Source: a virus
DNA length: 26,669 bases
IMG/VR virus record: IMGVR_UViG_3300008120_005951
Location: 1 to 26,669 of that record
Reading direction: 5' to 3' (one strand)
Shown piece by piece: positions 4,120-25,881 of this stretch (position 1 is the first letter of the stretch; each line of letters begins with the position of its first letter). Under the pieces are notes generated by a model, which made no database searches, had not been told where the DNA came from, and saw nothing but the letters and a program-made list of their open reading frames with translations. Made by a program: the position numbers and the translations under genes.

Positions 4120-4127
4120 TATTTATA
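4120..4127 (+). promoter_or_regulatory. TATTTATA motif, candidate late promoter
   Basis: Exact TATTTATA, ending 10 bases before the ATG at 4138, in the short gap between the gp5-like gene and the next gene. Confidence 0.45.
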
Positions 4128-5516: not shown

Positions 5517-5524
5517 TATTTATA
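5517..5524 (+). promoter_or_regulatory. TATTTATA motif, candidate late promoter
   Basis: Exact TATTTATA 4 bases before the ATG at 5529; TATTTATAGATTATG differs by one base from the sequence before the gene at 30. Confidence 0.5.
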
Positions 5525-6951: not shown

Positions 6952-7238
6952 TGGATTTTCCATTCAAAGAAGAACAACAAGACGGATTCCACATTAGAAC
7001 ATTTTCATCAGATTTATCTGAAATGGAACTTAAATGGCATTTCGATGAGCAAGATAGAACTGTCATTTGTGAATATGATACTGATTGGATGTTTCAAATG
7101 GATGATGAATTACCTATTATTATAAAAAAAAATACCCCCATTTTTATTCCTGAGGGTACCTATCATCGAATCATTAAAGGGACGGGAGATTTAGTTGTCA
7201 AGGTAAAAAAACACTTGGACACCACACTCGTTAAGTAA
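6951..7238 (+). CDS. Small cupin-like protein
   Basis: A 95-aa protein with a single-domain cupin-like barrel pattern: beta-rich, with IKKNTPIFIPEGTYHRI near residues 59-75 matching the conserved second cupin motif (P-x-G-x-x-H). The first metal-binding motif is poor, so metal-dependent catalysis is doubtful. The start at 6951 overlaps the previous stop as TAATG; an in-frame ATG at 6945 would add two residues. Its last 48 bases overlap, on the opposite strand, the end of the dCMP deaminase gene. The role is unknown; small phage cupins are often called structural or sugar-related without proof. Confidence 0.65.
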   Translation: MDFPFKEEQQDGFHIRTFSSDLSEMELKWHFDEQDRTVICEYDTDWMFQMDDELPIIIKKNTPIFIPEGTYHRIIKGTGDLVVKVKKHLDTTLVK

Positions 7239-7640
7239 TTGCATACTTTTTGATTGGGATTCTTCCCACTTTTCTTTGTTTTTAGTGGTACACACACGTT
7301 TACACCACACAACCTTTACTCCTGAATTAACAATACCTCTGGCACAATCCATACAGGGTAAACCCGAAGTTAGATAAATGGTGGAGTTCTTTAAAGAAAC
7401 ACCAATCCTTGCTGCATTATAAATTGCGTTTCTTTCCGCGTGTTCAAACCAAAAGTATTTTTCAGGTCTTTCCTGACGTTCTTGTATTGAATCGTCCATT
7501 CCCCTCGGGAATGAGTTATAACCTGTAGAAAGGACCTCATTGTCCTGACCAACGATAACCGCACCTATTTGTGTAGATTGGTCTTTAGATTTAAGTTTTA
7601 CTTGTTCTGCGATGTTTAAAAAGTATTCGGTCCAATTCAT
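7191..7640 (-). CDS. dCMP deaminase (deoxycytidylate deaminase)
   Basis: A 149-aa protein of the cytidine/dCMP deaminase family, which converts dCMP to dUMP and so feeds dTTP synthesis. The zinc site is complete: H67-A-E69 (FEHAERNAIY) supplies the His ligand and catalytic Glu, and P95-C96-M-D-C99 supplies the two Cys ligands. An earlier region, STQIGAVIV and GYNSFPRGMDD, is the usual substrate-loop segment of this family. Its start overlaps the stop of the 7637 gene (7637-7640), so both are co-transcribed from the host-type promoter at 7988-8018. A nucleotide-pool gene behind a host-type promoter fits early expression. T4 gpcd is the functional counterpart. Confidence 0.9.
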   Translation of the reverse strand: MNWTEYFLNIAEQVKLKSKDQSTQIGAVIVGQDNEVLSTGYNSFPRGMDDSIQERQERPEKYFWFEHAERNAIYNAARIGVSLKNSTIYLTSGLPCMDCARGIVNSGVKVVWCKRVCTTKNKEKWEESQSKSMQLLNECGVQVFFYLDN

Positions 7641-8067: not shown

Positions 8068-9780
8068 TTATCTTAAAGTGTCAAGACTGAATGTAGCCAA
8101 TCCATGTACGTCGATTACACCATAGTAACGGTTGTTAACCATTTTCTTAGCGTATCTCGTCATGATACCCTTAATTGGGGTAAAGTTGAACGGATTGTAC
8201 ATAGTCGGAGTCAACTGTAGAGGTACATACGGTGCGTAGATGTAACCAGCGTCTAACAATGACTTACCTTTGTGACCGATGATTACTTTACCTGCTGGTA
8301 AGTAAGGGTCACGGTAAACTTGGTAACGACCAGCTAATGAACCGATTTTCTCGATACCCATGTTGTATGAATCCTGCTCAGGACCTGCGTTTGAAACGTG
8401 GAAGTACTCCAAGTCGTCAAATACTGCAGAAACTTCAGAAGAAACTACAACCCAGTTAGCTCCACCACGAAGAGTTGTCTTGTGGATTTGAGCAGAGATT
8501 TGGTTGATTTTGGTAATCAAAGTTTGGTTCCAATCCTTCTGAGTGTAACCCATGAAAGGTGTACCACTAACAGCACCATACTTCCACTCGTTGTAATCCC
8601 ACTTAGTTCTCCAAGCGGCACCTTTACGAATGTCACGTAAGATTTCACGGTCGATTTCTGCCGCAACTTGCTCAGACAATAAAGCTGTTAATTCAGCTTC
8701 AGCGTCGATGTTGTGGAATGCAGAAACGTCTTGAGCCAATTCAGGAGACCAGCTAGCTCTTAACTTTCTTTCAGTTACAGAAACTGTTACTGATTGAAGG
8801 TCGAAAGATACTTCACCGATTTCTTCTTCGAATTCAAGAGATTCGTAAGTTCTGTAAGAAACAACGATGTTAGCAAGTGCTAAGTCGTTTGTAAAGTCAG
8901 CAGCACTGAAACCTGTTGTTGCGTCATAAAGTTCGAAATCTACGTTCAAGTAAATTTTACCTTCTTCATCACAGATGTCGTTGAACTTATTTACACCACT
9001 ACCGGCTTTCTGACCGTACTCAACGATACCTTTACCGTATTTCTGAGTTACAACGTTGAAGTTTTTAACGCCATTGTTTGCAGTTGTGTTACCAGTAACA
9101 GTGATTGCTAATGAAGCTAAGAATTCTTCAGTGTCCATCACGTTACCATCAGCACCTACCATTTTACCTTGACCATCTTTAGTGAAACCACTAAGAACAA
9201 CAATCGCACTTGATACTGAACCAGACAAAGCCGCAGTACTTTCAGTTACCGCACCATTGTTGAATGTTACGAACGCGAAAGGTGCTGCTGCTACTGAAGT
9301 AGCCGCTCCTCTTGAGTAATCGAAGATACCTGAAGTTGCAGAATCATCTTCCTCATAGAAACGGTCATACAAACTTTGTGAAGAAGTATAACCAGCTCCT
9401 GGATTACTTTCGGAATTTGGATATCCGAATGGTGCTTGCTTAGTGTCTTGGATTTTAGGTATGAAGTAGAACAATTTACCGATAGGTAAGTTCATTGCTT
9501 GTACTGATACGATGTCGTTAGCTAATAATTTAGAGAAAACACGACGGATGATAGGGAAAACTACGGTCTCGAAAGAACCACTAGCATCAGAAACTGCTGC
9601 TTCGTTGATTAAGTAAGACGCTTGGTTTTCGTACAACTGTGCGATGTTATCTTTTTGATGGCCGTCAAGACCTTCTAGGAATCCTAAATCATCCCATTTT
9701 TTGATGGTATCTTCTTTGATAACACGAAGGTGCTTTAGACCGATGTTACCAACCATACCTGATTCTAATAATGCTCCCAT
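8068..9780 (-). CDS. gp23: Major capsid protein, T4 gp23 type
   Basis: A 570-aa protein of the HK97-fold gp23 family, which builds the hexamers of the head. Diagnostic stretches are FPIIRRVFSKLLANDIVSVQAMN (near 74-97), EQVAAEIDREILRDI (near 375-390), and the C-terminal run RYQVYRDPYLPAGKVIIGHKG to ARYAKKMVNNRYYG. The T4 protein is 521 aa, so this one is slightly longer, with an inserted Thr/Ala/Gly-rich region near 150-240. An I-N-E|A site at residues 58-61 matches the gp21 protease consensus at the position where T4 gp23 loses its N-terminal peptide, giving a predicted mature protein of 510 residues. It is last in the head operon and followed by a strong terminator. Confidence 0.95.
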   Translation of the reverse strand: MGALLESGMVGNIGLKHLRVIKEDTIKKWDDLGFLEGLDGHQKDNIAQLYENQASYLINEAAVSDASGSFETVVFPIIRRVFSKLLANDIVSVQAMNLPIGKLFYFIPKIQDTKQAPFGYPNSESNPGAGYTSSQSLYDRFYEEDDSATSGIFDYSRGAATSVAAAPFAFVTFNNGAVTESTAALSGSVSSAIVVLSGFTKDGQGKMVGADGNVMDTEEFLASLAITVTGNTTANNGVKNFNVVTQKYGKGIVEYGQKAGSGVNKFNDICDEEGKIYLNVDFELYDATTGFSAADFTNDLALANIVVSYRTYESLEFEEEIGEVSFDLQSVTVSVTERKLRASWSPELAQDVSAFHNIDAEAELTALLSEQVAAEIDREILRDIRKGAAWRTKWDYNEWKYGAVSGTPFMGYTQKDWNQTLITKINQISAQIHKTTLRGGANWVVVSSEVSAVFDDLEYFHVSNAGPEQDSYNMGIEKIGSLAGRYQVYRDPYLPAGKVIIGHKGKSLLDAGYIYAPYVPLQLTPTMYNPFNFTPIKGIMTRYAKKMVNNRYYGVIDVHGLATFSLDTLR

Positions 9781-9813: not shown

Positions 9814-11034
9814 TTATTTTATTTTTGACATCAAATCTTTCATTCTCTTGAACTGCGGGTTCTCGTAAGCTTTTGACTCAGAAAGAACTTCAGTTGAAGA
9901 CGAAGTACTTGGTGCCGAAGTAATCTTATCAACTACTGATTCAGAAATTGGTTTTTTAGTATCTAATTCAGTTTTAATTGTTGAATAAAGATTTTTCGAT
10001 TCTTTCAAGGTTGAGATAGAATCAAATCTCTTTAAGATGTTAAGTTTTTCTTGTTTTGTGGTTGAATGTTCTGTGAACAAACGAGTAGCGTAAGCCAAGT
10101 TTGCGTTAAACACAGCAACTTCGTTAAGCTTTTCTTTGAACAACACAAGAGCTTTCTTGTATTCGGCATTTTGTTTTTTCAAGTTCTCAACTTCTTCGTT
10201 GATTGCTCCTGCTGCGAATACTTTTTTACTCTTAATACCTGCTCTTTCAGCTTCACCTTTGTCACCATGTGCGTTCCACTTAGTTCTTGCGGCTTCACCC
10301 ATTTCTTCTTCGTGAGGTTCGTCAAAAGTTTCTTCAGATACTTCCTCTTCATTTGACTCTTCCCCTTCTTCATCAAGTTCGATTTCGTAAACCACTTCCT
10401 CACCTTCGTTCCAATCTTCTGAAACTTCAGGTGCCGGCTCTACCATAGACTCCTCAACATCACCCATTTCTTCCATAGGTTCGTCAAAAGTTTCTTCCAT
10501 AGTTTCTTCTTCGTGGGTTTCTTCTTCGTCCAACTTAATGATGTACTCATCATCACCATCTTCAAGTTCGATGTGGTTTTCATCCTTCTTAACGATAATA
10601 CCATCTTCAGGACCCATTGCTTTGAAAACTTTTAAAACTTCGTCTTCGTCGGCGTCAGTCATATCAACAGTGTCATCATCTTCCATTCCTTCAGGACCCA
10701 TGTCATCCATTTCTGGACCCATTTCGTCTTCAGAATCTAATGATTCAATGTCTTTAGATAGTTCGTCGTCAGATGATTCCTCATCACCCTCTTCATCGTT
10801 ATCGAGACCACCTTCCTCATCCCCAGCTTCGGCTGGTACATCGTCTTGAGTCTCTTCTTCAGAATCGGGTTGTTCTGCAACAACCTCTTCCTCTTCTTCC
10901 AATGATTCTTTTAGCAAATCTGTTAGTTCTTGTTTCATGGTAGAAGCAAGTATACCCTTTGCGTTTGCTTTTACTGCCTCTTCAAGAGTCTGTACTTGAA
11001 GTAATGCTTGTTCTAAAATTGATTTTTCGCTCAT
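9814..11034 (-). CDS. gp22: Prohead core (scaffold) protein, T4 gp22-like
   Basis: A 406-aa, extremely acidic protein placed between prohead protease and major capsid protein, as gp22 is in T4. Residues 1-60 are helical (EQALLQVQTLEEAVKANAKG). Residues 45-245 are almost entirely Asp/Glu/Met/Ser. Residues 275-350 form a long helix (NLKKQNAEYKKALVLFKEKL, then NILKRFDSISTLKES). The acidic part contains two copies of EETFDEPxEE. The C-terminus ends MKDLMSKIK, nearly the same as the motif near the C-terminus of the adjacent protease. By family the protein forms the internal core around which the capsid shell assembles and is then degraded. Assignment rests on position and composition. Confidence 0.8.
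   Translation of the reverse strand: MSEKSILEQALLQVQTLEEAVKANAKGILASTMKQELTDLLKESLEEEEEVVAEQPDSEEETQDDVPAEAGDEEGGLDNDEEGDEESSDDELSKDIESLDSEDEMGPEMDDMGPEGMEDDDTVDMTDADEDEVLKVFKAMGPEDGIIVKKDENHIELEDGDDEYIIKLDEEETHEEETMEETFDEPMEEMGDVEESMVEPAPEVSEDWNEGEEVVYEIELDEEGEESNEEEVSEETFDEPHEEEMGEAARTKWNAHGDKGEAERAGIKSKKVFAAGAINEEVENLKKQNAEYKKALVLFKEKLNEVAVFNANLAYATRLFTEHSTTKQEKLNILKRFDSISTLKESKNLYSTIKTELDTKKPISESVVDKITSAPSTSSSTEVLSESKAYENPQFKRMKDLMSKIK
10296..10335. repeat. Direct repeat copy 1 within gp22-like gene
   Basis: CACCCATTTCTTC (10296-10308) and the 20-base core at 10316-10335 recur at 10461-10497. Each copy encodes an EETFDEPxEE-MG segment, an internal duplication in the acidic region. Confidence 0.6.
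10461..10497. repeat. Direct repeat copy 2 within gp22-like gene
   Basis: Second copy of the unit at 10296-10335: the 13-base start (10461-10473) and 20-base core (10478-10497) are identical, with three fewer bases between them. Confidence 0.6.
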
Positions 11035-11052: not shown

Positions 11053-11060
11053 TATAAATA
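11053..11060 (-). promoter_or_regulatory. TATTTATA motif, candidate late promoter of gp22/gp23
   Basis: TATAAATA on the plus strand, TATTTATA in the sense of the gp22-like gene, 18 bases before its ATG. The 33-base gp22-gp23 gap has no copy, so it may serve both genes. Confidence 0.5.
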
Positions 11061-11114: not shown

Positions 11115-11798
11115 TTATTTAGATAAAAATCTATCCAATTTTGACATTAGATTTTTCATTTTATCAATTGATTCTGGTCTTTCCTCAATAGATTCCGCAT
11201 AGTTATCTCTCTCACCTAAATCCTTAAAAACGTATGCCCCGGGAGTTGATGGGGACGATACTAAATCAAAACATACCAATTCAAAATCTTCTTGTACGAT
11301 GTTTTGACCTTTTACATTTTTTAATGAACCAACACCTCTTGATGATATACCTAATGTTGCTCCATTCATTAATAACATTGCGGCTTGGTCTCCTTTGGTA
11401 CTAACTATACCCATCTTCTTCCAACCTGGAGAAGTAAATAATTTTATCTTACCCATTAACATTTTACCATCCCACCACGTTTCCATAATAGAATGTGATA
11501 CCCTATCAAGGTCAATAAGTGAAGATGAGGGGTGATTTAATTCATTTAAGGCACCACCTTTCTTTATAAGTGTTTGATATTTTTCGTTTTCTCTTTTAAG
11601 TAACATTTCAGGATAAATCCTTCCGTTCTTATTTGGAGTATCGAATTTTTGTAAAACGGCATAGAGAATAATATCCTGAGAAAAGTCTGTATCTTTCATC
11701 TCGGATATTATTCTTTGATTTTCTTGTGGAGATATATGACCCGCGTCGTATTCGATTAAAATACCCTTGCCGGTCTCGTTAGGTCCAAGTATCTTCAT
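11115..11798 (-). CDS. gp21: Prohead protease, T4 gp21 type
   Basis: A 227-aa serine protease of the herpesvirus-protease-like gp21 family, which matures the prohead by cutting scaffold and capsid proteins. Visible catalytic elements are His89 in ELNHP, the nucleophile region GISSRGVG (Ser152/Ser153) and the FELVCFDLVSSPS strand with Asp178. The NGRIYP sequence (58-63) is a familiar landmark of the family. The length is close to T4 gp21 (212 aa). The C-terminal tail (214-222, MKNLMSKLD) closely resembles the end of the neighbouring gp22-like protein. A TATTTATA motif lies 13 bases upstream of the start. Confidence 0.92.
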   Translation of the reverse strand: MKILGPNETGKGILIEYDAGHISPQENQRIISEMKDTDFSQDIILYAVLQKFDTPNKNGRIYPEMLLKRENEKYQTLIKKGGALNELNHPSSSLIDLDRVSHSIMETWWDGKMLMGKIKLFTSPGWKKMGIVSTKGDQAAMLLMNGATLGISSRGVGSLKNVKGQNIVQEDFELVCFDLVSSPSTPGAYVFKDLGERDNYAESIEERPESIDKMKNLMSKLDRFLSK

Positions 11799-11811: not shown

Positions 11812-11819
11812 TATAAATA
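11812..11819 (-). promoter_or_regulatory. TATTTATA motif, candidate late promoter of gp21
   Basis: TATAAATA on the plus strand, TATTTATA in the sense of the protease gene, 13 bases before its ATG. Confidence 0.5.
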
Positions 11820-11832
11820 CCCCAATAACAGA

Positions 11833-12258
11833 TTAATTCTTTGTTTTATAAAAATTAAACAAAGTTTCATCAGTTAAAACGGTATCTATAATATTTTCAG
11901 ATATGTCGGATACTATTTGTTTTATCTCTTTTGATTTAACGTCAAAATATTTCTCAACGTATAATGTTATCTCTAAATCCATAAATGACCTTTTATTTGT
12001 TTTAACCCCGCTAGTTTTGATGTCGAGGTCAACGATAGATTGTGGTTTAAAATACTCACATCTTAGGTCGTAAATTTTATTTTTGATTTGTCTTCTTGTT
12101 TTCGAAATTAGTTTATCGAAATCACAATCGTCCTGATTTGGTTGAGTCCAAGAATTTAATTGGATGTAGATAGTTTTTAGGTTTTTGTAATCAACGGTGC
12201 CATAACCTATCTTTACGTTATTGTGGACACCAATTGTAATAAACTTGCCCTTTTTCAT
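11833..12258 (-). CDS. Uncharacterised protein in head cluster
   Basis: A 141-aa protein of unknown family, with mixed strands and helices: KGKFITIGVHNNVKIGYGTV at the start, then NLKTIYIQLNSW, a Lys/Arg-rich middle, and a C-terminal half EITLYVEKYFDVKSKEIKQI. No motif, signal peptide or membrane segment is visible. It is transcribed towards the protease gene 34 bases away and away from the bS21 gene, with 99 bases between the two divergent starts. Head-assembly involvement is plausible from position only. Confidence 0.65.
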   Translation of the reverse strand: MKKGKFITIGVHNNVKIGYGTVDYKNLKTIYIQLNSWTQPNQDDCDFDKLISKTRRQIKNKIYDLRCEYFKPQSIVDLDIKTSGVKTNKRSFMDLEITLYVEKYFDVKSKEIKQIVSDISENIIDTVLTDETLFNFYKTKN

Positions 12259-12357
12259 TAATATTATTCATACTTAGTATTTTTATGGTGTATTTAAAAT
12301 ATACAGAATAAACTTAAAAAATCCAAATATTTAAATTATATTTTTAAAAAGACACTT

Positions 12358-12549
12358 ATGATTATCGTAGACGTTACAAAAGAAAGAAACCTTGAAATCG
12401 CACTAAAGAAGTACAAAAACAAGGTTTATAAAACAAAACAGACTGAACAATTAAGGGAAAGACAAGAATTTGTGAAACCCTCAGTCTTAAAAAGAGAACA
12501 AAAGTTAAAAGCTATCTACAAAGAGAAGCTAAACGGACCACAAGATTAA
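12358..12549 (+). CDS. rpsU: Phage-encoded ribosomal protein bS21
   Basis: A 63-aa protein with the whole pattern of bacterial bS21: MIIVDVTKERNLEIALKKYK, then KTKQTEQLRERQEFVKPSV and KREQKLKAIYKEK. It matches the short Bacteroidota form better than the proteobacterial one (YKxK end, KPSV). bS21 sits on the 30S platform beside the 3' end of 16S rRNA; in Bacteroidota it helps to hide the anti-Shine-Dalgarno sequence. Tyr54 is kept, the residue I recall as contacting that RNA tail. The gene lies alone on the plus strand inside the minus-strand head cluster; its stop codon TAA shares bases with the stop of the facing gene (TTAA, 12546-12549). No Shine-Dalgarno sequence is seen upstream. Confidence 0.9.
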   Translation: MIIVDVTKERNLEIALKKYKNKVYKTKQTEQLRERQEFVKPSVLKREQKLKAIYKEKLNGPQD

Positions 12550-13283
12550 TCTAAACTTTTACTAAGTTCAATCAATCTGTAGTAATTGAATTTACTCACT
12601 GTAGATTCGTTTACTTCTTTTTTTGCTTCTTTAAGTTTGTCAATTAACGTTGAATCGGATTCTCCTGATATTAAAGTATCAAACTTTTGAGTCATCGATT
12701 CTTTCAACGTATTCATTTCTACAGATAACTCCCCATCCTTCATCGAAACAATTTTCTTAAATGTTTCTTTTTGTTCTTCATTCATGAAGTCAGTAAACTT
12801 AGTGTTGAAATTGTTTACTAAAACTGCATTTAATAATGATTGGTTATCCGTATGTGGAGCAACATCTTCTACCTGAATTTGTTTCGAGGTCGTAAGGTGT
12901 TTAATTAATCTTTCTTTAGATACAACCTTCTTTTCTACATTCAATAGTGTTGTTTCCTCAGACAATACATCTAAACACTCATATACCTCGTTTTTATTAG
13001 GTGCAACTTCTTTTAACGATTCGGTTAATGTTGAGATACCTTCATTAACAAGTTTTGATTTTTGAATTAAAAGAGTTTCGATTTGTTCCACAAACAATTT
13101 AGCGGTCTCAATACTTGGGATATGTTTATTTTCAACATCCTCATAAAACAAATACATCTCAATCAAATTCTTATTTGATTTAACTTGTTTTAATAATTCC
13201 TTGACATCTGATTTTTTATCAGAGGTGTATGATTCTGTTAGTTTTACTAACAACTTTGTTTTTACATCACCAAAATTTGACAT
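12546..13283 (-). CDS. Uncharacterised helical protein after portal gene
   Basis: A 245-aa, Lys/Glu-rich, almost wholly helical protein without recognisable domains; it opens with SNFGDVKTKLLVKLTESY and ends KFNYYRLIELSKSLD. It begins one base after the portal stop, so it is co-transcribed with gp20. In T4 the genes between 20 and 21 encode small prohead core proteins (gp67, gp68). This gene occupies the equivalent place and has the composition expected of a core protein, but no sequence match can be claimed. Its 3' end meets the bS21 gene with a 4-base overlap. Confidence 0.65.
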   Translation of the reverse strand: MSNFGDVKTKLLVKLTESYTSDKKSDVKELLKQVKSNKNLIEMYLFYEDVENKHIPSIETAKLFVEQIETLLIQKSKLVNEGISTLTESLKEVAPNKNEVYECLDVLSEETTLLNVEKKVVSKERLIKHLTTSKQIQVEDVAPHTDNQSLLNAVLVNNFNTKFTDFMNEEQKETFKKIVSMKDGELSVEMNTLKESMTQKFDTLISGESDSTLIDKLKEAKKEVNESTVSKFNYYRLIELSKSLD

Positions 13284-13284
13284 T

Positions 13285-15090
13285 TTATTGTTCGTTTAGT
13301 ATATCTTTTAATTTATTTTCTATTTCATAAATATTCTGTTGGGCTTTATTGACATCAAAAAGGTCATTTAAATTATCGCCCTCACCCAACATACTTAAAA
13401 TATTACGACGTTTTGTGGATTCACTTAACGGTGCGGCGGGTTCCGCTGCTGCCGGTTCTGCGGCTCCTCCACCCATTTCGGCTCCTCCACCCATTTCACC
13501 ACCTGCCGGTGCTTCTCCACCTTCTTGTCTTTCTTCCTCAGGTACACCGTATTTCGCGTCAACATCATCAAATACACCAGAACGTTTAATTACGTTTTGA
13601 GTGTTTGTTAATTCAAATCCCATTGCTCTCTCGATACGTTGTTGTTGTAGGTCAAGTAATACCTCACTATCACTCATACCAAGAATGTTCTTCTTAGCCC
13701 ATGTATGTGACACAGGTAAGATACCTACTTGAGATTGGTCTGAGGTTGCGTTTTTATAAAGTTCAATTTTTTCTTTCCACTGTTCAATCTTTAATAAGTC
13801 GGATTGTGCGGACGGATTGGTTAATGAAAGTGAGAAATTATCTAACTCATCTTCCATACCAAGAAGATACAAGTGAACAAGAGCGATTTTATTCAACTCT
13901 TGAATTAATGATTTTTGAATTCTATTAATGGTTCTTGCGAAACGAATATCCATTAATGCTAATTGCTTACCGTCACCCACAACTTCTTCAAATCCCAAAA
14001 ATGCTTTTGGAATACGAAGTGCAGCTAGCATCTTCTTTTGAATATATTCTATATCGGCAATCTCACCTAAATTCTGAGCTCCCGCCAATGTTTCAATTGG
14101 ATTTGTTTGTGCCGGGTCACGAATAGGAATGAAATAATCTTGGTCTACTGCCATTTGATTATATCTCATATCTACTTGACCATTTCTTGGGTCAACTACT
14201 TGGTCTCTTTTAAATTTATTGGCAACACGTTGTACGTAAGCTTCAATGTCCTTATCGTCCATGTTACCAACAAATACTTTGAATACACGTCTTTCAGGTG
14301 CTCTTGTCGTTCTATAAATCAACATCGCATCCTCCGCAAGAAGTAATTGTTTCCAAATTCTTCTAATCTTATCCAACATGGAAGTACCATACGGAAGCTT
14401 TCTATCGTCACCCAATAATCTAAAATGTGCAATTTCCCATGCTTGGAATTCCAATTCTTTATTCTTCCATTGGAATCTTAATTCTCTTGTAGGTGCTTTA
14501 ATATCTCTTTGATGTGGAGTTTTTGATTCTCTACCTTCAATTCTTTCAATCTCAATATTAGGTAATTGTTGACATCCAATTATACCTCTTTCGGGGTCAA
14601 TTTTTAAATAAACAAAATCATCCCCGTATTTACAAACCCCTCTTGCCCACATCTGTAGATTCGTATTCAAATCTAAACGATTGATGAACAAATCTTCTAA
14701 AATACTTTTAATTCTTGTTGATTCTGAAAATATGGTTAAAATATCGCCCTTTTCAGAAAGTGTCGTAGATTCTTCAGCGTAGATGTCAAGTGCTGCCGAA
14801 ATTTCTGGAGTAAACTCCATGGATTCATAATCATAATATGCTGCTAATCTATTTGGTTCGTAGTAAACAGATTGATTATAAAGGGATTGTTCAAGTTTTG
14901 TCCACTTATCTGCAATGTACTGACTTTGTTGCGCTTGTAACATTGCTTTTTCATAATCTTCTCTACTACTTGTTTTTAGTATTTCGTCTTTAGAAAAATT
15001 AAAAGATGGGACCTCCTCAGATTTTACTGCTCCGGGATACCCAAACATCTTGGTTAATCTCTGAAATACTGTTAAATTATTATCTGCCAT
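13285..15090 (-). CDS. gp20: Portal protein, T4 gp20 type
   Basis: A 601-aa portal (head-tail connector) protein, forming the dodecameric ring through which DNA is packed. Diagnostic stretches are LDIYAEESTT (near 102), RRVFKVFVGNMDDKDIEAYV (near 268-288), MRYNQMAVDQDYFIPIR (near 310-325), the GAQNLGEIADIEYIQKKM helix and PKAFLGFEE. T4 gp20 is 524 aa; the extra length is mostly a Gly/Ala/Pro/Glu-rich tail (about 523-554) and a final helix (555-601). That low-complexity tail is more GC-rich than its surroundings. Two TATTTATA motifs lie upstream, one only three bases from the ATG. Confidence 0.95.
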   Translation of the reverse strand: MADNNLTVFQRLTKMFGYPGAVKSEEVPSFNFSKDEILKTSSREDYEKAMLQAQQSQYIADKWTKLEQSLYNQSVYYEPNRLAAYYDYESMEFTPEISAALDIYAEESTTLSEKGDILTIFSESTRIKSILEDLFINRLDLNTNLQMWARGVCKYGDDFVYLKIDPERGIIGCQQLPNIEIERIEGRESKTPHQRDIKAPTRELRFQWKNKELEFQAWEIAHFRLLGDDRKLPYGTSMLDKIRRIWKQLLLAEDAMLIYRTTRAPERRVFKVFVGNMDDKDIEAYVQRVANKFKRDQVVDPRNGQVDMRYNQMAVDQDYFIPIRDPAQTNPIETLAGAQNLGEIADIEYIQKKMLAALRIPKAFLGFEEVVGDGKQLALMDIRFARTINRIQKSLIQELNKIALVHLYLLGMEDELDNFSLSLTNPSAQSDLLKIEQWKEKIELYKNATSDQSQVGILPVSHTWAKKNILGMSDSEVLLDLQQQRIERAMGFELTNTQNVIKRSGVFDDVDAKYGVPEEERQEGGEAPAGGEMGGGAEMGGGAAEPAAAEPAAPLSESTKRRNILSMLGEGDNLNDLFDVNKAQQNIYEIENKLKDILNEQ

Positions 15091-15093
15091 GTA

Positions 15094-15101
15094 TATAAAT
15101 A
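15094..15101 (-). promoter_or_regulatory. TATTTATA motif, candidate late promoter of gp20 (near copy)
   Basis: TATAAATA on the plus strand, three bases from the portal ATG (15090). If it is a -10-type box, the portal mRNA would be leaderless. Confidence 0.45.
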
Positions 15102-15114
15102 GTTTTCTTTAGAA

Positions 15115-15122
15115 TATAAATA
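15115..15122 (-). promoter_or_regulatory. TATTTATA motif, candidate late promoter of gp20 (distal copy)
   Basis: Second copy before the portal gene, 24 bases from the ATG, in the 57-base gap after the terminase stop. Confidence 0.45.
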
Positions 15123-15147: not shown

Positions 15148-16917
15148 TTACCTCTTCTTACCAAATAACCAAGAGTATTCCTTGTAATGGTCTTTTGTTG
15201 GGGAACCTAATGGATGATTGTTATTACCATTATTTCCGGCGAACATAGCCCCCACAGAATCCATAGTAGAACCGTATGAATAGAATGTTCTGTTTGCTTC
15301 ATATGTTCTTTCAGAAACTGTCCAAGATTCTAACATCGCCCTATTTGCGTTTTCGTTCTTTTGTAACTGATTGAAACACATATCACCAGCATAGAGTGCC
15401 ATTGATAAACTCATAATAGAATCATCGTGAGCACCTTTCATGTGGTCAGGTCTCCCGTTGATATAAACGAATGTGTTTAATTCGTTCATCAGTCTTGCTG
15501 ACCTAACGGCGAATCCTTTTCTTAGTTGTTCTTCAAATGCTGCAACGATTTGGGTTCTTTTGTTGTTGAAATTTAAACCGGGAATTTTATCCTGTGCTTT
15601 ACGGTTATAATCCCAAATATTTTGAGTGTTAACACCATCAATGTACAGGTTTTTATAGTTCATTTCTTGTAACTTACGTGATGTGGCAATACCCATACCA
15701 CCTGTAATATCAATTACAATAAATGCTTCATATAGAATACCCCATTTGTATGCAATAGATGCTAAATCGTCGGGTGGTATCTTCCCAATATATTCCGCAA
15801 CTTGTTCTCTTTCATCGAAATCAACAATATTAATTGATGAAAAATCCTCACTATCTCCACGACTTACGTCGACACCCATAATGTATCTATGACCTTGTAT
15901 AGGTTCCTTCCATTGCCAAAAAGTACCTTGCATGTACTTCTCTTTTGGTTCTCGAATAAAGTTCTTGGTAATATGGTCTTGCACATCACCGGGAATTACC
16001 CCGTCACCTGAACCCAAGAAATCACATTCCAATTCCTGTGCAATCTTTCTTCTATCATACTTGAATTTTTTTGACATTGATTCGAACCAAGACGAGAACG
16101 GTTTATATCCTTGTTCCTCATATTCTTGGTATTTGTTTATGTCAAATTCATATATCACAACTTCATTGTCGTCATACTGTTCTCTATTTAACATGTAATG
16201 TGTAATATCACTACACTTAACCCATCTAAGGTCTTTAGTATAACGAGGGTCTTTAAACCATCTTAAATCAGTAATATGAAAGTCATTTATCTTTCTGATT
16301 GCTTGGTCATAAACACCGTAATAAATTGGGTCATAACCATTTGGTGTTGAGATTAAAATGATTTTACCTCCCGTAGAAAGAGATGCCATAGATGCCGCCC
16401 AAAAGTCGTCACCCGCTTCGATATATGCAGCTTCGTCAAATACAAGGATTGTTGGGGTATAACCACGTAACGCATCCGCAGATGTCGCAACGGCTTTAAC
16501 CTCACATCCATTATTTAATCTAAATCTACTTTCAGAGTTTTTATCGGGAGAAAACCCAACATTAATCCAATCGGGCCACTGCTCTAAAAAGTGACGAATT
16601 TTATTCGCCATTTCAATTGCAGTATCTCTTTTGTTAGCAATTACAAGAACTCTCTCAGGATTCTCGGGTTTGGCTAGCTGTAATCTTCTTGATATCCAAG
16701 CCGATGTAACAGTAGATACACCCGCCTGACGATATTTTCTTGTTATATTTTCGTTGTAATCCTCGTAATCCTGAATCAACTGTATTTGGTCAGGAAATAA
16801 CTCAAGAGGAACGAATTTCTTCTGTGTATTATCATAAGTCTGCAAATACGTCTTTAACGAATATGGTGCATCCTTTAGTATTCTAGCATACTCTTTAAGT
16901 TGTTCAACTCTTGTCAT
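15148..16917 (-). CDS. gp17: Terminase large subunit, T4 gp17 type
   Basis: A 589-aa DNA-packaging motor and nuclease. The ATPase has a deviant Walker A, RKYRQAGVST (60-69), in which Val replaces the usual Lys of GKS/T while Lys61 sits at the start of the motif, then Walker B ILVFDEAA (157-164) and coupling motif ISTPNG (189-194). The nuclease domain has the expected three acidic sites: D350 in GVDVSRGDSED, D403 in VIDITGGMG and D498/D499 in GAHDDS. The length is close to T4 gp17 (610 aa). It is the first gene of the head cluster, separated from the upstream operon by a terminator and preceded at three bases by TATTTATA. Confidence 0.95.
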   Translation of the reverse strand: MTRVEQLKEYARILKDAPYSLKTYLQTYDNTQKKFVPLELFPDQIQLIQDYEDYNENITRKYRQAGVSTVTSAWISRRLQLAKPENPERVLVIANKRDTAIEMANKIRHFLEQWPDWINVGFSPDKNSESRFRLNNGCEVKAVATSADALRGYTPTILVFDEAAYIEAGDDFWAASMASLSTGGKIILISTPNGYDPIYYGVYDQAIRKINDFHITDLRWFKDPRYTKDLRWVKCSDITHYMLNREQYDDNEVVIYEFDINKYQEYEEQGYKPFSSWFESMSKKFKYDRRKIAQELECDFLGSGDGVIPGDVQDHITKNFIREPKEKYMQGTFWQWKEPIQGHRYIMGVDVSRGDSEDFSSINIVDFDEREQVAEYIGKIPPDDLASIAYKWGILYEAFIVIDITGGMGIATSRKLQEMNYKNLYIDGVNTQNIWDYNRKAQDKIPGLNFNNKRTQIVAAFEEQLRKGFAVRSARLMNELNTFVYINGRPDHMKGAHDDSIMSLSMALYAGDMCFNQLQKNENANRAMLESWTVSERTYEANRTFYSYGSTMDSVGAMFAGNNGNNNHPLGSPTKDHYKEYSWLFGKKR

Positions 16918-16920
16918 ATA

Positions 16921-16928
16921 TATAAATA
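16921..16928 (-). promoter_or_regulatory. TATTTATA motif, candidate late promoter of gp17
   Basis: TATAAATA on the plus strand, three bases from the terminase ATG and directly downstream of the preceding operon's terminator. Confidence 0.5.
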
Positions 16929-20270: not shown

Positions 20271-20278
20271 TATAAATA
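20271..20278 (-). promoter_or_regulatory. TATTTATA motif, candidate late promoter of pre-terminase operon
   Basis: TATAAATA on the plus strand, 40 bases before the ATG of the 321-aa gene; a one-mismatch copy (GATAAATA, 20246-20253) lies closer. Confidence 0.4.
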
Positions 20279-21402: not shown

Positions 21403-21774
21403 TTAATTCAACGAAATAAAACGTTCAAGAGATTTCTTTTTGAGTTTGGGAAGAAGGATTTCTAAAACACCATTCTCCACTTTACCTGTGATGTCTTTTT
21501 CGTTTACATCCTCAGGAAGAGAATATGTTTTCTTAAAGGAGCTTACAAAAGAATAATTAATATCATCCTTTTCTTCCTTTTTATATGAGATACTCAACAA
21601 ACCATCTTTAACCGAAATAGATAAATCATCTTTTGTTAATCCGGGTACCGCAAGATAGAAAGAGTACTCATTATCTCTCGTAACGAGTTTAGTTGAATTC
21701 TCCCTAGTTAGGGACGGTTTTTCAAAGAAAGTGTCTAACACATCTTTGAAGGGGTCTTTGTGAAATACTAACAT
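21403..21774 (-). CDS. hsp20: Small heat-shock protein (Hsp20 / alpha-crystallin)
   Basis: A 123-aa chaperone of the alpha-crystallin family, which holds unfolding proteins without ATP. The crystallin domain spans about 30-118: YSFYLAVPGLTKDDLSISV is the usual first strand pair (P-G-L-x-K-D-D), and GVLEILLPKLKK is the G-V-L-x-x-x-L-P signature. The N-terminal arm is short, and no IxI tail is evident, so oligomers may be small. T4-like cyanophages also carry hsp20 genes near structural genes. It is divergent from a clpC-like unfoldase gene across a shared inverted repeat, which suggests joint regulation. Confidence 0.9.
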   Translation of the reverse strand: MLVFHKDPFKDVLDTFFEKPSLTRENSTKLVTRDNEYSFYLAVPGLTKDDLSISVKDGLLSISYKKEEKDDINYSFVSSFKKTYSLPEDVNEKDITGKVENGVLEILLPKLKKKSLERFISLN

Positions 21775-21815: not shown

Positions 21816-21893
21816 CATTTAAAAAAAGTAGACAATATGACAGTTATATTATTATAACAACTGAAAAATTGTCACCTACTTGTTTTTTAAATG
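21816..21893. promoter_or_regulatory. Long imperfect inverted repeat between hsp20 and clpC-like gene
   Basis: Matching blocks in mirror order are CATTTAAAAAA (21816-21826) with TTTTTTAAATG (21883-21893), AAGTAG (21826-21831) with CTACTT (21876-21881), GACAAT (21831-21836) with ATTGTC (21868-21873), CAGTT (21841-21845) with AACTG (21859-21863), and the centre GTTATA/TATAAC. The arms end about 41 and 36 bases before the two start codons (21774 and 21930), as expected of a shared bidirectional operator or two copies of one promoter. Confidence 0.6.
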
Positions 21894-21929
21894 AATTTTG
21901 ATTATATTTCTATAAAAGATTCAAAAACC

Positions 21930-23948
21930 ATGGCAGTAGATTTTTTCGAAGAAGGTCAACAAACCACACCGAAAAGGGGTCGAAAGGGTTCAACAACACC
22001 CATTTTAGACAACTTTTCAAGAGACCTAAATAAATTAGTGGAAGAGGGTAAGATAGACCCAATCATAGGTAGAGAGAAGGAAGTTAAAAGAATAGCACAA
22101 ATACTTTCTCGAAAGAAGAAAAATAACGTAGTGGTTGTTGGAGATGCCGGTGTAGGTAAATCCGCTTTAGTAGAAAAATTGGCGTTATTGATTGTAAAAG
22201 GAGAATGCCCAACAAATCTATTGGATAAACGAATCGTATCGTTAGATTTGACTTCATTAGTTGCGGGAACAAAGTACAGAGGTCAATTTGAAGAGAGAAT
22301 TAAAGCAATCTTAAACGAACTACAACACGAACCCAATGTGATTGTCTTTATCGATGAATTACACACAATGATTGGTGCGGGTAACGCGAGTGGCTCAATG
22401 GATGCCGCAAACATTTTAAAACCAGCATTAGCTCGAGGAGAAATTCAATGTATTGGAGCAACTACCTTTGATGAGTTTAAAAAACACATTGAAAAAGATT
22501 CTGCGCTTGTAAGAAGATTTCAAAAAATTATTTTGAAGGAACCAACACAAGTAGAAACAATTCAAATTTTGGAAAACCTCAAGGATTCATACCAAACATA
22601 TCATAAGGTTTTCTATGATGATGGTGTTATAGAAACGATTGTTAAATTGTGTTCTCGTTTTATTACTGACAGGCAATTTCCCGACAAGGCAATCGATGTT
22701 CTTGATGAACTAGGTTCGGAAAAGAAAATCAACACTAAAGTTCCTGATATAATTGAGAATCTCAAAAAAGAATCTGAAGAAATAAAGAACAGAAAAATTC
22801 AAGTAGTAAAAAGTCAGAACTATGAGCAAGCGGCGAAATTAAGAGACGAAGAAAGAAAGGTATTGACTAAACTTGAAGAAGAAAAAAACATTTGGTTAGA
22901 GAAACAAAAGGATAACAAAATACCTATTGTAGTAAACGATGTTTACGAAATTGTTTCACAAATGACGGGAGTACCAATCACCAAATTAGATGAAAGGGAA
23001 ACCGAAAACTTATTGAAATTAGAAGAACGATTATCTTCAAAAGTAATTGGTCAAGATGAAGCAATCTCTATTATATCTAAATCAATAAGAAGAAACAGAG
23101 TCGGAATTAAAGATACAAACAAACCAATAGGTTCGTTTATCTTCTTAGGTTCGACAGGTGTGGGTAAAACATACTTAGCAAAATCCATTGCTGAACTTTT
23201 ATTTGGTGACCCCGATAAAGTTGTTAGGGTGGATATGAGTGAGTTCATGGAAAAACACAACGTATCTCGTTTAATTGGTTCACCTCCCGGTTATGTTGGT
23301 TATGATGAAGGTGGTCAATTGACCGAGAAGATTAAGAATAATCCCTTTTCTGTTGTCTTATTTGATGAGATTGAGAAAGCACATAAAGATGTCTTCAACA
23401 TCCTACTTCAGATTCTTGATGAAGGTCATTTAACAGATTCGTTTGGTAGAAAGGTTAACTTCACAAACACAATCATCATCATGACCTCTAATGTTGGTGC
23501 AAAGAAAGTTTCTGATTTTGGTGGTGGGGTTGGTTTCAATACAACATCAAGCGAATCTCAAAAACATGAGGTAAAGAAATCAATCATACAGAAATCTTTA
23601 AAACAACAATTCAATCCTGAATTCTTAAATCGCATTGATGATGTAATTTTGTTTAACCCGTTAAATGAAGAAACGATTAGCAGAATCATCGAAATTGAAT
23701 TGAGTAAATTGATTGTTAGATTAAAAGAAAAGAACTTCAACATCGTTTTTGATAAAACTGTCACCTCAAGAATTGCAGAACTTAACACACAAGAAGAGTA
23801 CGGAGCAAGACCGATTAAAAGAATCATACAGAATTTGTGTGAAGATTTCCTGTCGGAAGAGATTTTGAAGGGTAGTATTAAAGAAAATCAAACGATAACT
23901 TTGAAGTTTAAAGACGGTCAACTAAAAATTTTTAAGAAAATGGTGTAA
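21930..23948 (+). CDS. clpC: ClpC-type AAA+ unfoldase lacking the N-terminal domain
   Basis: A 672-aa Hsp100 protein with two AAA+ modules. D1: Walker A GDAGVGKS (71-78), pore loop GTKYRG (113-118), Walker B IVFIDELHT (138-146), arginine pair (195-196). A UVR-like coiled segment, QNYEQAAKLRDEE (near 296-308), is typical of ClpC. D2: Walker A GSTGVGKT (407-414), pore loop GYVGY (454-458), Walker B VVLFDEIEKAH (475-485), the VGF ClpP-binding loop (534-536) and GARPIKR sensor 2. The usual 140-residue Clp-N domain is absent. The sequence near the loop (SDFGGGVGFNT) is close to Bacteroidota ClpC. I start at 21930; ATG 21891 would add 13 residues but lies in the inverted repeat. It probably unfolds proteins for host ClpP. 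Confidence 0.85.
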   Translation: MAVDFFEEGQQTTPKRGRKGSTTPILDNFSRDLNKLVEEGKIDPIIGREKEVKRIAQILSRKKKNNVVVVGDAGVGKSALVEKLALLIVKGECPTNLLDKRIVSLDLTSLVAGTKYRGQFEERIKAILNELQHEPNVIVFIDELHTMIGAGNASGSMDAANILKPALARGEIQCIGATTFDEFKKHIEKDSALVRRFQKIILKEPTQVETIQILENLKDSYQTYHKVFYDDGVIETIVKLCSRFITDRQFPDKAIDVLDELGSEKKINTKVPDIIENLKKESEEIKNRKIQVVKSQNYEQAAKLRDEERKVLTKLEEEKNIWLEKQKDNKIPIVVNDVYEIVSQMTGVPITKLDERETENLLKLEERLSSKVIGQDEAISIISKSIRRNRVGIKDTNKPIGSFIFLGSTGVGKTYLAKSIAELLFGDPDKVVRVDMSEFMEKHNVSRLIGSPPGYVGYDEGGQLTEKIKNNPFSVVLFDEIEKAHKDVFNILLQILDEGHLTDSFGRKVNFTNTIIIMTSNVGAKKVSDFGGGVGFNTTSSESQKHEVKKSIIQKSLKQQFNPEFLNRIDDVILFNPLNEETISRIIEIELSKLIVRLKEKNFNIVFDKTVTSRIAELNTQEEYGARPIKRIIQNLCEDFLSEEILKGSIKENQTITLKFKDGQLKIFKKMV

Positions 23949-24385: not shown

Positions 24386-24799
24386 ATGACATATAAAGGA
24401 GATTTAATACTATTAAGAGGTTTACCGGGTTCAGGTAAAAGTACATTAGGTGAAATCATTATGACTTCACCCGGAAGTCCACAATTACCATTATCTGCGG
24501 ATGATTTCTTCACTGATAGTAAAGGTAACTACAATTTCGACCCGACGAAATTAAAAGAAGCACACAATCAGTGTAAACAACGTTGTGCATTATTGATGCA
24601 AAACGAGGTTAAAAAAATTGTCGTTTCTAATACATTTACCCAAGAGTGGGAAATGGATGAATACTTGGAGATGGCTAAAAGATATGATTATCGAATACAT
24701 ACAGTAATCGTAGAAAATCGTCATGGTGGTGTAAACATACACAATGTACCAGAGGATAAGTTACAACAAATGAAAGACCGTTTTAACATTGTACTGTGA
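24386..24799 (+). CDS. Polynucleotide kinase (P-loop kinase domain only)
   Basis: A 137-aa P-loop kinase resembling the kinase half of T4 polynucleotide kinase. It has Walker A GLPGSGKST (12-20), the substrate loop LSADDFF (36-42) whose Asp is the likely catalytic base, and a lid-like NRHGGVNIHNVP (111-122). It would put phosphate on 5'-OH ends of broken RNA. The T4 enzyme (301 aa) has a C-terminal HAD 3'-phosphatase; here that domain is absent. The gene overlaps the ligase start (GTGA, 24796-24799), so kinase and ligase are made together. Confidence 0.85.
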   Translation: MTYKGDLILLRGLPGSGKSTLGEIIMTSPGSPQLPLSADDFFTDSKGNYNFDPTKLKEAHNQCKQRCALLMQNEVKKIVVSNTFTQEWEMDEYLEMAKRYDYRIHTVIVENRHGGVNIHNVPEDKLQQMKDRFNIVL

Positions 24800-25881
24800 T
24801 TGAAATTTTAGAAAAATATCACAAAGATGGTTTGTTGATGAAACAAACTCACCCAACCAAAGATTTGTACATATGGAATTATACACCGAGAGTACAGTAC
24901 GAATCGTTGTGGGATGATATTACTATGCAATGCCGTGGTCTTATTACAACTCATTCAGGAGAAGTAATATCAAAACCATTCGGTAAGTTTTTTAATTACG
25001 AAGAAGTCATCGACAAAAATCTAATTCCTTGGGATAGTGAGTATGCACACATCCAAGATAAAATGGATGGTTCTCTCGGAATTCTTTTCTTTTACGACGG
25101 TGAATGGATTATGTCAACAAGAGGTTCTTTTACCTCAGAACAATCTATTCGTGGTTTAGAAATTCTTAAATCAAAATATGATTTAAGTAAATTCATGAAG
25201 GAAGTTACATACCTATGTGAAATCATTTATCCAGAAAATAGGATAGTAGTGAACTATGGTTGTGATAAGATTACATTTTTATCCGTAACAACACCCATAG
25301 ATGAATTGAACTGGCACACCACCCAAGCAATTTTTCATTCATCGGACATTGCGGAAGAAGATGTTGTTGAAAGTACAATGGTGACTTTTAATAAAAAAAC
25401 ATTTGACAGATATAAACAATTAAACACTCCGAATAGTGAAGGATTTGTTGTTCGTTTCTACCCATCAAATTTTAGAATGAAAATAAAGTTTGAAGAGTAT
25501 GTTCGTTTACATAGAATTCTAACCAACGTATCAAATAGAGATGTTTGGGAATATTTGAAAGACGATAAACCATTCGATGATTTACTTGAAAAGGTACCTG
25601 ATGAATTCAATGATTGGGTAAAAGAAACTGTAAGAGATTTGGTAGTTAGATTTGAAAACATAGAAAAAGAATATCAATGGATATTCAATAAAATTCGAAA
25701 TGTTTATTTTGAATCATATCAAAAAGAATTTAACCGACGTGAGTTTGCAGAGTTGGCTCAAAGATACACACACCCATCAATACTGTTTAATATGTTGGAC
25801 GGTAAGTCATATAAAAGTATAATATGGAAAATTTTATATCCACCATATTCAAAACCATTCAAAAAGGATGAAGAGAATTAG
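24796..25881 (+). CDS. rnl1: RNA ligase, T4 Rnl1 type
   Basis: A 361-aa ATP-dependent RNA ligase that joins 3'-OH and 5'-phosphate RNA ends. The nucleotidyltransferase motifs are complete: KMDG (Lys89 takes AMP), STRGSF (107-112), YLCEIIYPENRIVVNYG (139-155), EGFVVRF (215-221) and RMKIKFEEYV (227-236). The N-terminus, with LLMKQTHPTKDLYIWNYT, fits phage Rnl1 proteins and supports the GTG start at 24796, which overlaps the kinase stop; an internal ATG at 24838 would lose that conserved part. T4 Rnl1 is 374 aa and mends tRNA cut by the host PrrC anticodon nuclease. Confidence 0.92.
   Translation: MIEILEKYHKDGLLMKQTHPTKDLYIWNYTPRVQYESLWDDITMQCRGLITTHSGEVISKPFGKFFNYEEVIDKNLIPWDSEYAHIQDKMDGSLGILFFYDGEWIMSTRGSFTSEQSIRGLEILKSKYDLSKFMKEVTYLCEIIYPENRIVVNYGCDKITFLSVTTPIDELNWHTTQAIFHSSDIAEEDVVESTMVTFNKKTFDRYKQLNTPNSEGFVVRFYPSNFRMKIKFEEYVRLHRILTNVSNRDVWEYLKDDKPFDDLLEKVPDEFNDWVKETVRDLVVRFENIEKEYQWIFNKIRNVYFESYQKEFNRREFAELAQRYTHPSILFNMLDGKSYKSIIWKILYPPYSKPFKKDEEN

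Follow-up and report, generated by a model that had tools for sequence, protein, structure and literature searches.

A phage bS21 gene of Bacteroidia type, located in a head gene cluster and lacking the extended Shine-Dalgarno sequence of host rpsU

The window analysed here, a 26,669-base IMG/VR virus record, contains an open frame of 63 codons on the plus strand at 12358-12549, which begins with ATG, ends with TAA and has the product MIIVDVTKERNLEIALKKYKNKVYKTKQTEQLRERQEFVKPSVLKREQKLKAIYKEKLNGPQD, a bS21 (rpsU-like) protein of 63 aa. The reverse strand of this interval is full of stops. The gene is set among head genes that all lie on the minus strand. On one side are the genes for the major head protein (MCP; 8068..9780, phrog_138, 3.9e-67), an acidic low-complexity protein (9814..11034), the head maturation protease (11115..11798, phrog_207, 1.2e-40) and a predicted protein of 141 aa (11833..12258). 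A family search with the acidic protein gave no match, and its composition and its position between protease and MCP suggest that it is probably the scaffold. On the other side are the genes for a 245-aa helical protein (12546..13283), the portal protein (13285..15090, phrog_213, 8.3e-65) and the terminase large subunit (TerL; 15148..16917, phrog_5989, 2.2e-20). The phrog matches of MCP, protease, portal and TerL confirmed the location inside the head cluster that had been proposed in an earlier, sequence-only reading of this DNA.

The two genes that flank bS21 are arranged differently. The 141-aa gene is head-to-head with bS21, and the fold predicted for its product (pLDDT 90) has the order strands, helix, strands, helix. 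No PDB structure matched this fold at an E value of 1e-3 or better, and its sole confident viral structure match was an uncharacterised protein of Myoviridae sp. ctPuP5 (TM 0.81). We considered the 141-aa protein as a ribosome-acting partner of bS21 and rejected this role, as the protein has no PDB fold match and occurs in relatives without bS21; we read it as a head-cluster gene. The 245-aa gene is tail-to-tail with bS21, with overlapping stop codons. Its product had no family match, was modelled as helical with medium confidence, and also occurs without bS21. Elsewhere in the window, a gene for a dCMP/cytidine deaminase family protein (7191-7640, minus) lies downstream of the MCP gene, and an Hsp20 small heat-shock gene (21403-21774, minus) adjoins a gene for a ClpA/ClpB-like double AAA ATPase (21891-23948, plus). 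A gene for a kinase-like P-loop protein (AAA_33; 24386-24799, plus) overlaps that of a T4 Rnl1-type RNA ligase (24796-25881, plus), and these two may form an RNA repair pair. Both a tRNA scan and an Rfam scan of the window were empty.

The product of 12358-12549 matched PF01165 (Ribosomal_S21) with an E value of 1.3e-9 and a score of 38.1 bits, exceeding the gathering threshold (27), and the alignment spanned residues 4-56, corresponding to model positions 2-54 of 55, which agrees with the earlier claim that the protein reads end to end as bS21. With NCBIfam TIGR00030 it scored 24.6 bits, below the equivalog cut-off of 28.95; we therefore regard it as a divergent bS21 that, by its sequence alone, is not called a TIGR00030 equivalog. 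When the PDB was searched using phmmer, the top two matches were chain 9 of 9i5v (1.7e-10) and chain z of the Flavobacterium johnsoniae ribosome 7jil (3.9e-10), and the remaining chains were at 4e-4 or worse. By our own reading of its sequence, the 9i5v chain appears to be a Bacteroidota-type bS21, so that both top matches support the Bacteroidota type assigned before. The outcome that the sequence-only reading had named as speaking against it, a search without any match to bS21, thus did not occur. The segment K51-A52-I53-Y54 places Tyr at residue 54, as in Bacteroidia-type bS21, the form that hides the anti-Shine-Dalgarno sequence and binds the 16S rRNA tail jointly with bS18 and bS6. The protein had also been said to end like the host form, and this was only partly upheld by alignment with Bacteroidota bS21: K51, A52 and Y54 are common to both, but the C-terminal tail beyond about residue 56 is not host-like, with KLNGPQD in the phage and TLKDSLES in the host. 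The gene encodes a phage version of Bacteroidia bS21.

Across 106 distinct phage bS21 coding sequences, residue 54 was Tyr in 102, Phe in three and His in one, which makes it aromatic throughout (106/106) and agrees with the earlier statement that Tyr54 is kept. The median pairwise dN/dS among these genes was 0.14, indicating purifying selection. Because residue 54 is conserved and the median dN/dS is this low, the gene is evidently maintained as a protein. For comparison with the host form we used 54 distinct Flavobacteriaceae-type host proteins, a set that consists mainly of Flavobacteriaceae. Near-complete replacements in the phage proteins relative to this set were found at P5, D8, G9, E10, D13, R14, R18, R21, F23, D24, G27, T28, R30, A34, A37, Q50 and A53. 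All phage and host proteins had A15, L16, K20, L32, K40, S42, R46 and A52 in common, and nearly all had K22, R33, P41, V43, K51 and Y54. At residue 27, a wider Bacteroidota sample had Gly in 32/32 host sequences, whereas all phage bS21 proteins had Lys or Arg.

A scan of IMG/VR with the window bS21 protein yielded 80 loci. Where the contig was long enough, bS21 and the 141-aa gene were head-to-head, 94-107 nt apart, and bS21 and the 245-aa gene were tail-to-tail, their stop codons overlapping or adjacent. Since this gene order recurs in 80 loci, the bS21 locus is not a chance arrangement. A tblastn search for cultured relatives in a phage collection returned a single record of 642 kb, uncultured, at 45%. 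A second scan of IMG/VR, with the alignment of the 141-aa protein as the query, also gave 80 loci, of which 73 had a head-to-head bS21, one was too short to tell and six had no bS21 (L224, L226, L231, L236, L268 and L271). In these six loci both neighbour genes were intact, and the leader of the 141-aa gene came next after the 245-aa gene, with an intrinsic-terminator-like hairpin between the two in five of them, as judged by eye. The six contigs are fragments of 4-38 kb that carry no bS21 elsewhere, and a copy may lie outside the fragment. In a tree of the 141-aa protein (141 columns, root uncertain), the six loci fell in three places inside bS21-bearing groups, which forces at least three changes, and the deepest branch (L061 and L062) carries bS21. 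The simplest reading is an old acquisition of bS21 followed by repeated loss. The six related loci that lack bS21 represent three or more lineages and retain both neighbours, so that bS21 looks accessory. Neither neighbour is tied to bS21, as both also occur in its absence, and this weakens the case for the functional coupling that has been suggested for bS21 and its neighbour.

The intergenic region between bS21 and the 141-aa gene is 99 nt long and contains several promoter-like elements, whose assignment follows the Bacteroidota promoter consensus. The sequence TATATTTT at 12337..12344 (plus), 13 nt before the ATG, is a candidate -7 box of Bacteroidota type for bS21, and TATATTT was present in 70 of the 82 distinct bS21 relatives. 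On the minus strand, the divergent 141-aa gene has a candidate -33 element, TTTGG at 12323..12327; it is conserved in relatives, read as CCAAA on the bS21 strand. A spacer of 19 nt (N19) separates it from a second TATATTTT at 12296..12303, which the aligned divergent leaders suggest as the -7 box of this gene. The leader of the 141-aa gene also holds a conserved element, ACACCATAAA (12282..12291, minus), found in nearly all relatives. We discarded it as a bS21-binding regulatory site, as five of the six bS21-less loci keep it as well. E. coli-type promoters were likewise set aside, since shuffled sequences yielded more sites in a sigma70-type scan than the region itself.

Another element, the 8-mer TATTTATA, recurs through the window; its reverse complement is TATAAATA, the late box of T4. 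One copy lies 3 nt before the portal ATG (15094..15101, minus), and the other sense copies are at 18-25, 4120-4127 and 5517-5524 on the plus strand and at 11053-11060, 11812-11819, 15115-15122, 16921-16928 and 20271-20278 on the minus strand. In the window, eight genes have copies in the 60 nt before them, always on the sense strand; these make up nine of the 11 copies, against 0.4 expected, and the sense copies stand 3-40 nt ahead of structural genes. For 371 genes of relatives, 124 upstream copies were counted against 6 expected, most often 11-12 nt before the ATG. Among the bS21 leaders, 70/82 had the element with at most one mismatch, compared to 35 in shuffled leaders, and it is degenerate in the clade of the window itself. 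TATTTATA is thus a candidate late promoter, which would give very short, near-leaderless mRNAs.

To compare translation signals, the pairing energy of the 21 nt upstream of each start with the 16S rRNA tail was taken as the Shine-Dalgarno (SD) energy. Host Flavobacteriaceae rpsU had an extended SD in 80/80 loci, at -17.6 to -22.1 kcal/mol, with mock positions near +1; these loci are close to F. johnsoniae, because its bS21 was the query. In a wider Bacteroidota sample, 23 of 32 host rpsU leaders reached -13 kcal/mol, a few miscalled starts included; some Bacteroidota rpsU thus have no strong SD, and the host of the window phage may be one of these. The phage bS21 leaders reached -5.4 kcal/mol at the strongest, and that of the window -1.5, so the phage gene has no extended SD, which is a feature of the host gene and not of the protein. 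GGAG, GAGG or AGGA occurred in none of the 82 distinct phage bS21 leaders, and these leaders did not match the alternative anti-SD core of some Flavobacteriales either. SD-like pairing at -7 kcal/mol or stronger was found for 19 of 737 phage genes, rarer than the 84 in mock positions; phage mRNAs as a class are SD-less, just as the sequence-only reading had stated. The lack of an SD on bS21 may therefore be the default of phage genes and not an evolved evasion, but its consequence would be the same. Without the host-type SD, phage bS21 should escape host control.

This contrast bears on a regulatory loop described in the host. In McNutt et al. 2023 (PMC9976891), host rpsU was shown to carry an extraordinarily strong SD and to be translated best by bS21-free ribosomes, which constitutes an autoregulatory loop. 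Such ribosomes prefer the SD-bearing rpsU, and in F. johnsoniae the Y54A substitution or a C-terminal truncation of bS21 raised translation of SD-bearing rpsU 3- to 5-fold (PMC9976891). The explanation that we favour, at a probability of roughly 0.55, is that phage bS21 replaces the host form, hides the anti-SD and shuts off host rpsU. Late in infection, phage bS21 would most likely take the place of the host protein in 30S subunits of the host, where its Tyr54 would keep the 3ʹ tail of 16S rRNA out of reach, so that the ribosomes would stay adapted to SD-less mRNAs, including those of the phage itself. By filling the pool of bS21-free ribosomes, which would otherwise translate host rpsU, it would also cause host bS21 synthesis to fall. 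The SD-less phage gene would be read by replete ribosomes and would be immune to the feedback loop, and the phage form could take over through the host's own feedback with no need for a dedicated protease. This last proposal, in which the phage captures the bS21 pool by exploiting host autoregulation while its own gene is immune, is more tentative, and we hold it at somewhat less than even odds.

Several observations favour replacement of the host form, namely the identity of the protein, its Tyr54, its head-cluster setting, the SD contrast in the sampled Flavobacteriaceae and purifying selection. From these we infer incorporation into ribosomes, blocking of the anti-SD by phage bS21 and repression of host rpsU. 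Phage bS21 is transcribed together with late genes (PMC9723584), and E. coli ribosomes take up the bS21 of a pelagiphage (PMC6375957). The same pelagiphage protein left E. coli ribosomes nearly inactive (PMC6375957), and by analogy phage bS21 might poison ribosomes rather than redirect them. Against replacement, the six related loci without bS21 indicate that the gene is not essential to the lineage, and many N-terminal and loop positions, including Gly27, differ from host bS21.

These replaced positions also speak for the published view, in which the altered N-terminal helix and loop of phage bS21 retune initiation to phage mRNAs, while SD blocking would only be carried over and escape from autoregulation would be a by-product. 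The fixed differences between phage and host cluster at residues 5-37 (P5, D8-E10, R14, R18, R21, F23, D24, G27, T28, R30, A34 and A37), on the mRNA-facing side according to Chen et al. (PMC9723584). However, the host proteins compared are mainly from Flavobacteriaceae, we found no phage-specific initiation signal beyond AT-rich, SD-less leaders, and host leaders are SD-less too, so that it is hard to see what would be discriminated; we consider retuning possible but doubtful. It is rather unlikely that phage bS21 simply supplements, without selectivity, a limiting and loosely bound ribosomal protein and thereby keeps ribosomes complete while host synthesis is shut off. Such a role would fit the strong purifying selection and the loose binding and exchangeability of bS21, an essential protein in F. 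johnsoniae (PMC9976891, PMC6375957), but host-conserved residues, Gly27 and Phe23 among them, are replaced systematically, which exceeds what supplementation would need. If the protein acted away from the ribosome, be it as a virion protein or as a partner that binds RNA in the head, this would explain the position between head genes and the late setting, and virion delivery was suggested by Chen et al. (PMC9723584). We consider such a function very improbable, given that residue 54 is conserved in 106/106 sequences, that bS21 lies on the opposite strand with a promoter-like box of its own, and that it is absent from some relatives with an intact head cluster.

For the displacement of the host copy by a phage bS21, the SD contrast offers a protease-free route, and the published rpsU'-gfp reporters make it approachable in F. 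johnsoniae. If the route is real, the phage would hijack a feedback loop of specialised ribosomes, and the contrast ties such ribosomes to phage biology. The absence of the host regulatory SD from every sampled phage bS21 copy appears to be new. Neither PMC9723584 nor PMC9976891 mentions it, and a search of a limited set of papers found no other that does. The finding is otherwise ordinary, a known phage gene with a known feature.

Phages carry bS21 more often than any other ribosomal protein (PMC9976891, PMC6375957), and exactly this arrangement was described by Chen et al. 2022 (PMC9723584) in freshwater and lake Bacteroidetes phages of clades a-e. In those phages, as here, a Bacteroidetes-like bS21 with an aromatic residue 54, kept in all their phage copies, lies reversed between two hypothetical genes in the TerL/portal/protease/MCP block, and Hsp20 and Clp genes, both present in the window, were reported near phage bS21. 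Chen et al. also proposed that host bS21 is replaced late in infection (PMC9723584). The location, the conservation of Tyr54 and the takeover hypothesis are thus already published, the sequence-only reading was close to theirs, and the window is a further member of their bS21 phage family from a separate IMG/VR record. One difference is that their co-transcribed neighbour was absent from two outgroups, whereas here both neighbours occur in bS21-less relatives. F. johnsoniae host bS21 (7jil; PMC9976891) is of the same family and length and shares Tyr54, K40-P41-S42-V43 and R46, but identity is only about 38-45%, the phage form replaces Gly27, Phe23 and several Arg, and F. johnsoniae rpsU has the extended SD that the phage gene does not have. 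The bS21 of Pelagibacter phage HTVC008M (Mizuno et al. 2019, PMC6375957) is likewise a phage bS21, shown in E. coli ribosomes, but is of proteobacterial type and belongs to another host phylum. McNutt et al. regard autoregulation as helping the host to restore bS21 if a phage destroys it (PMC9976891); their view and ours disagree on whether the loop treats the phage protein as bS21.
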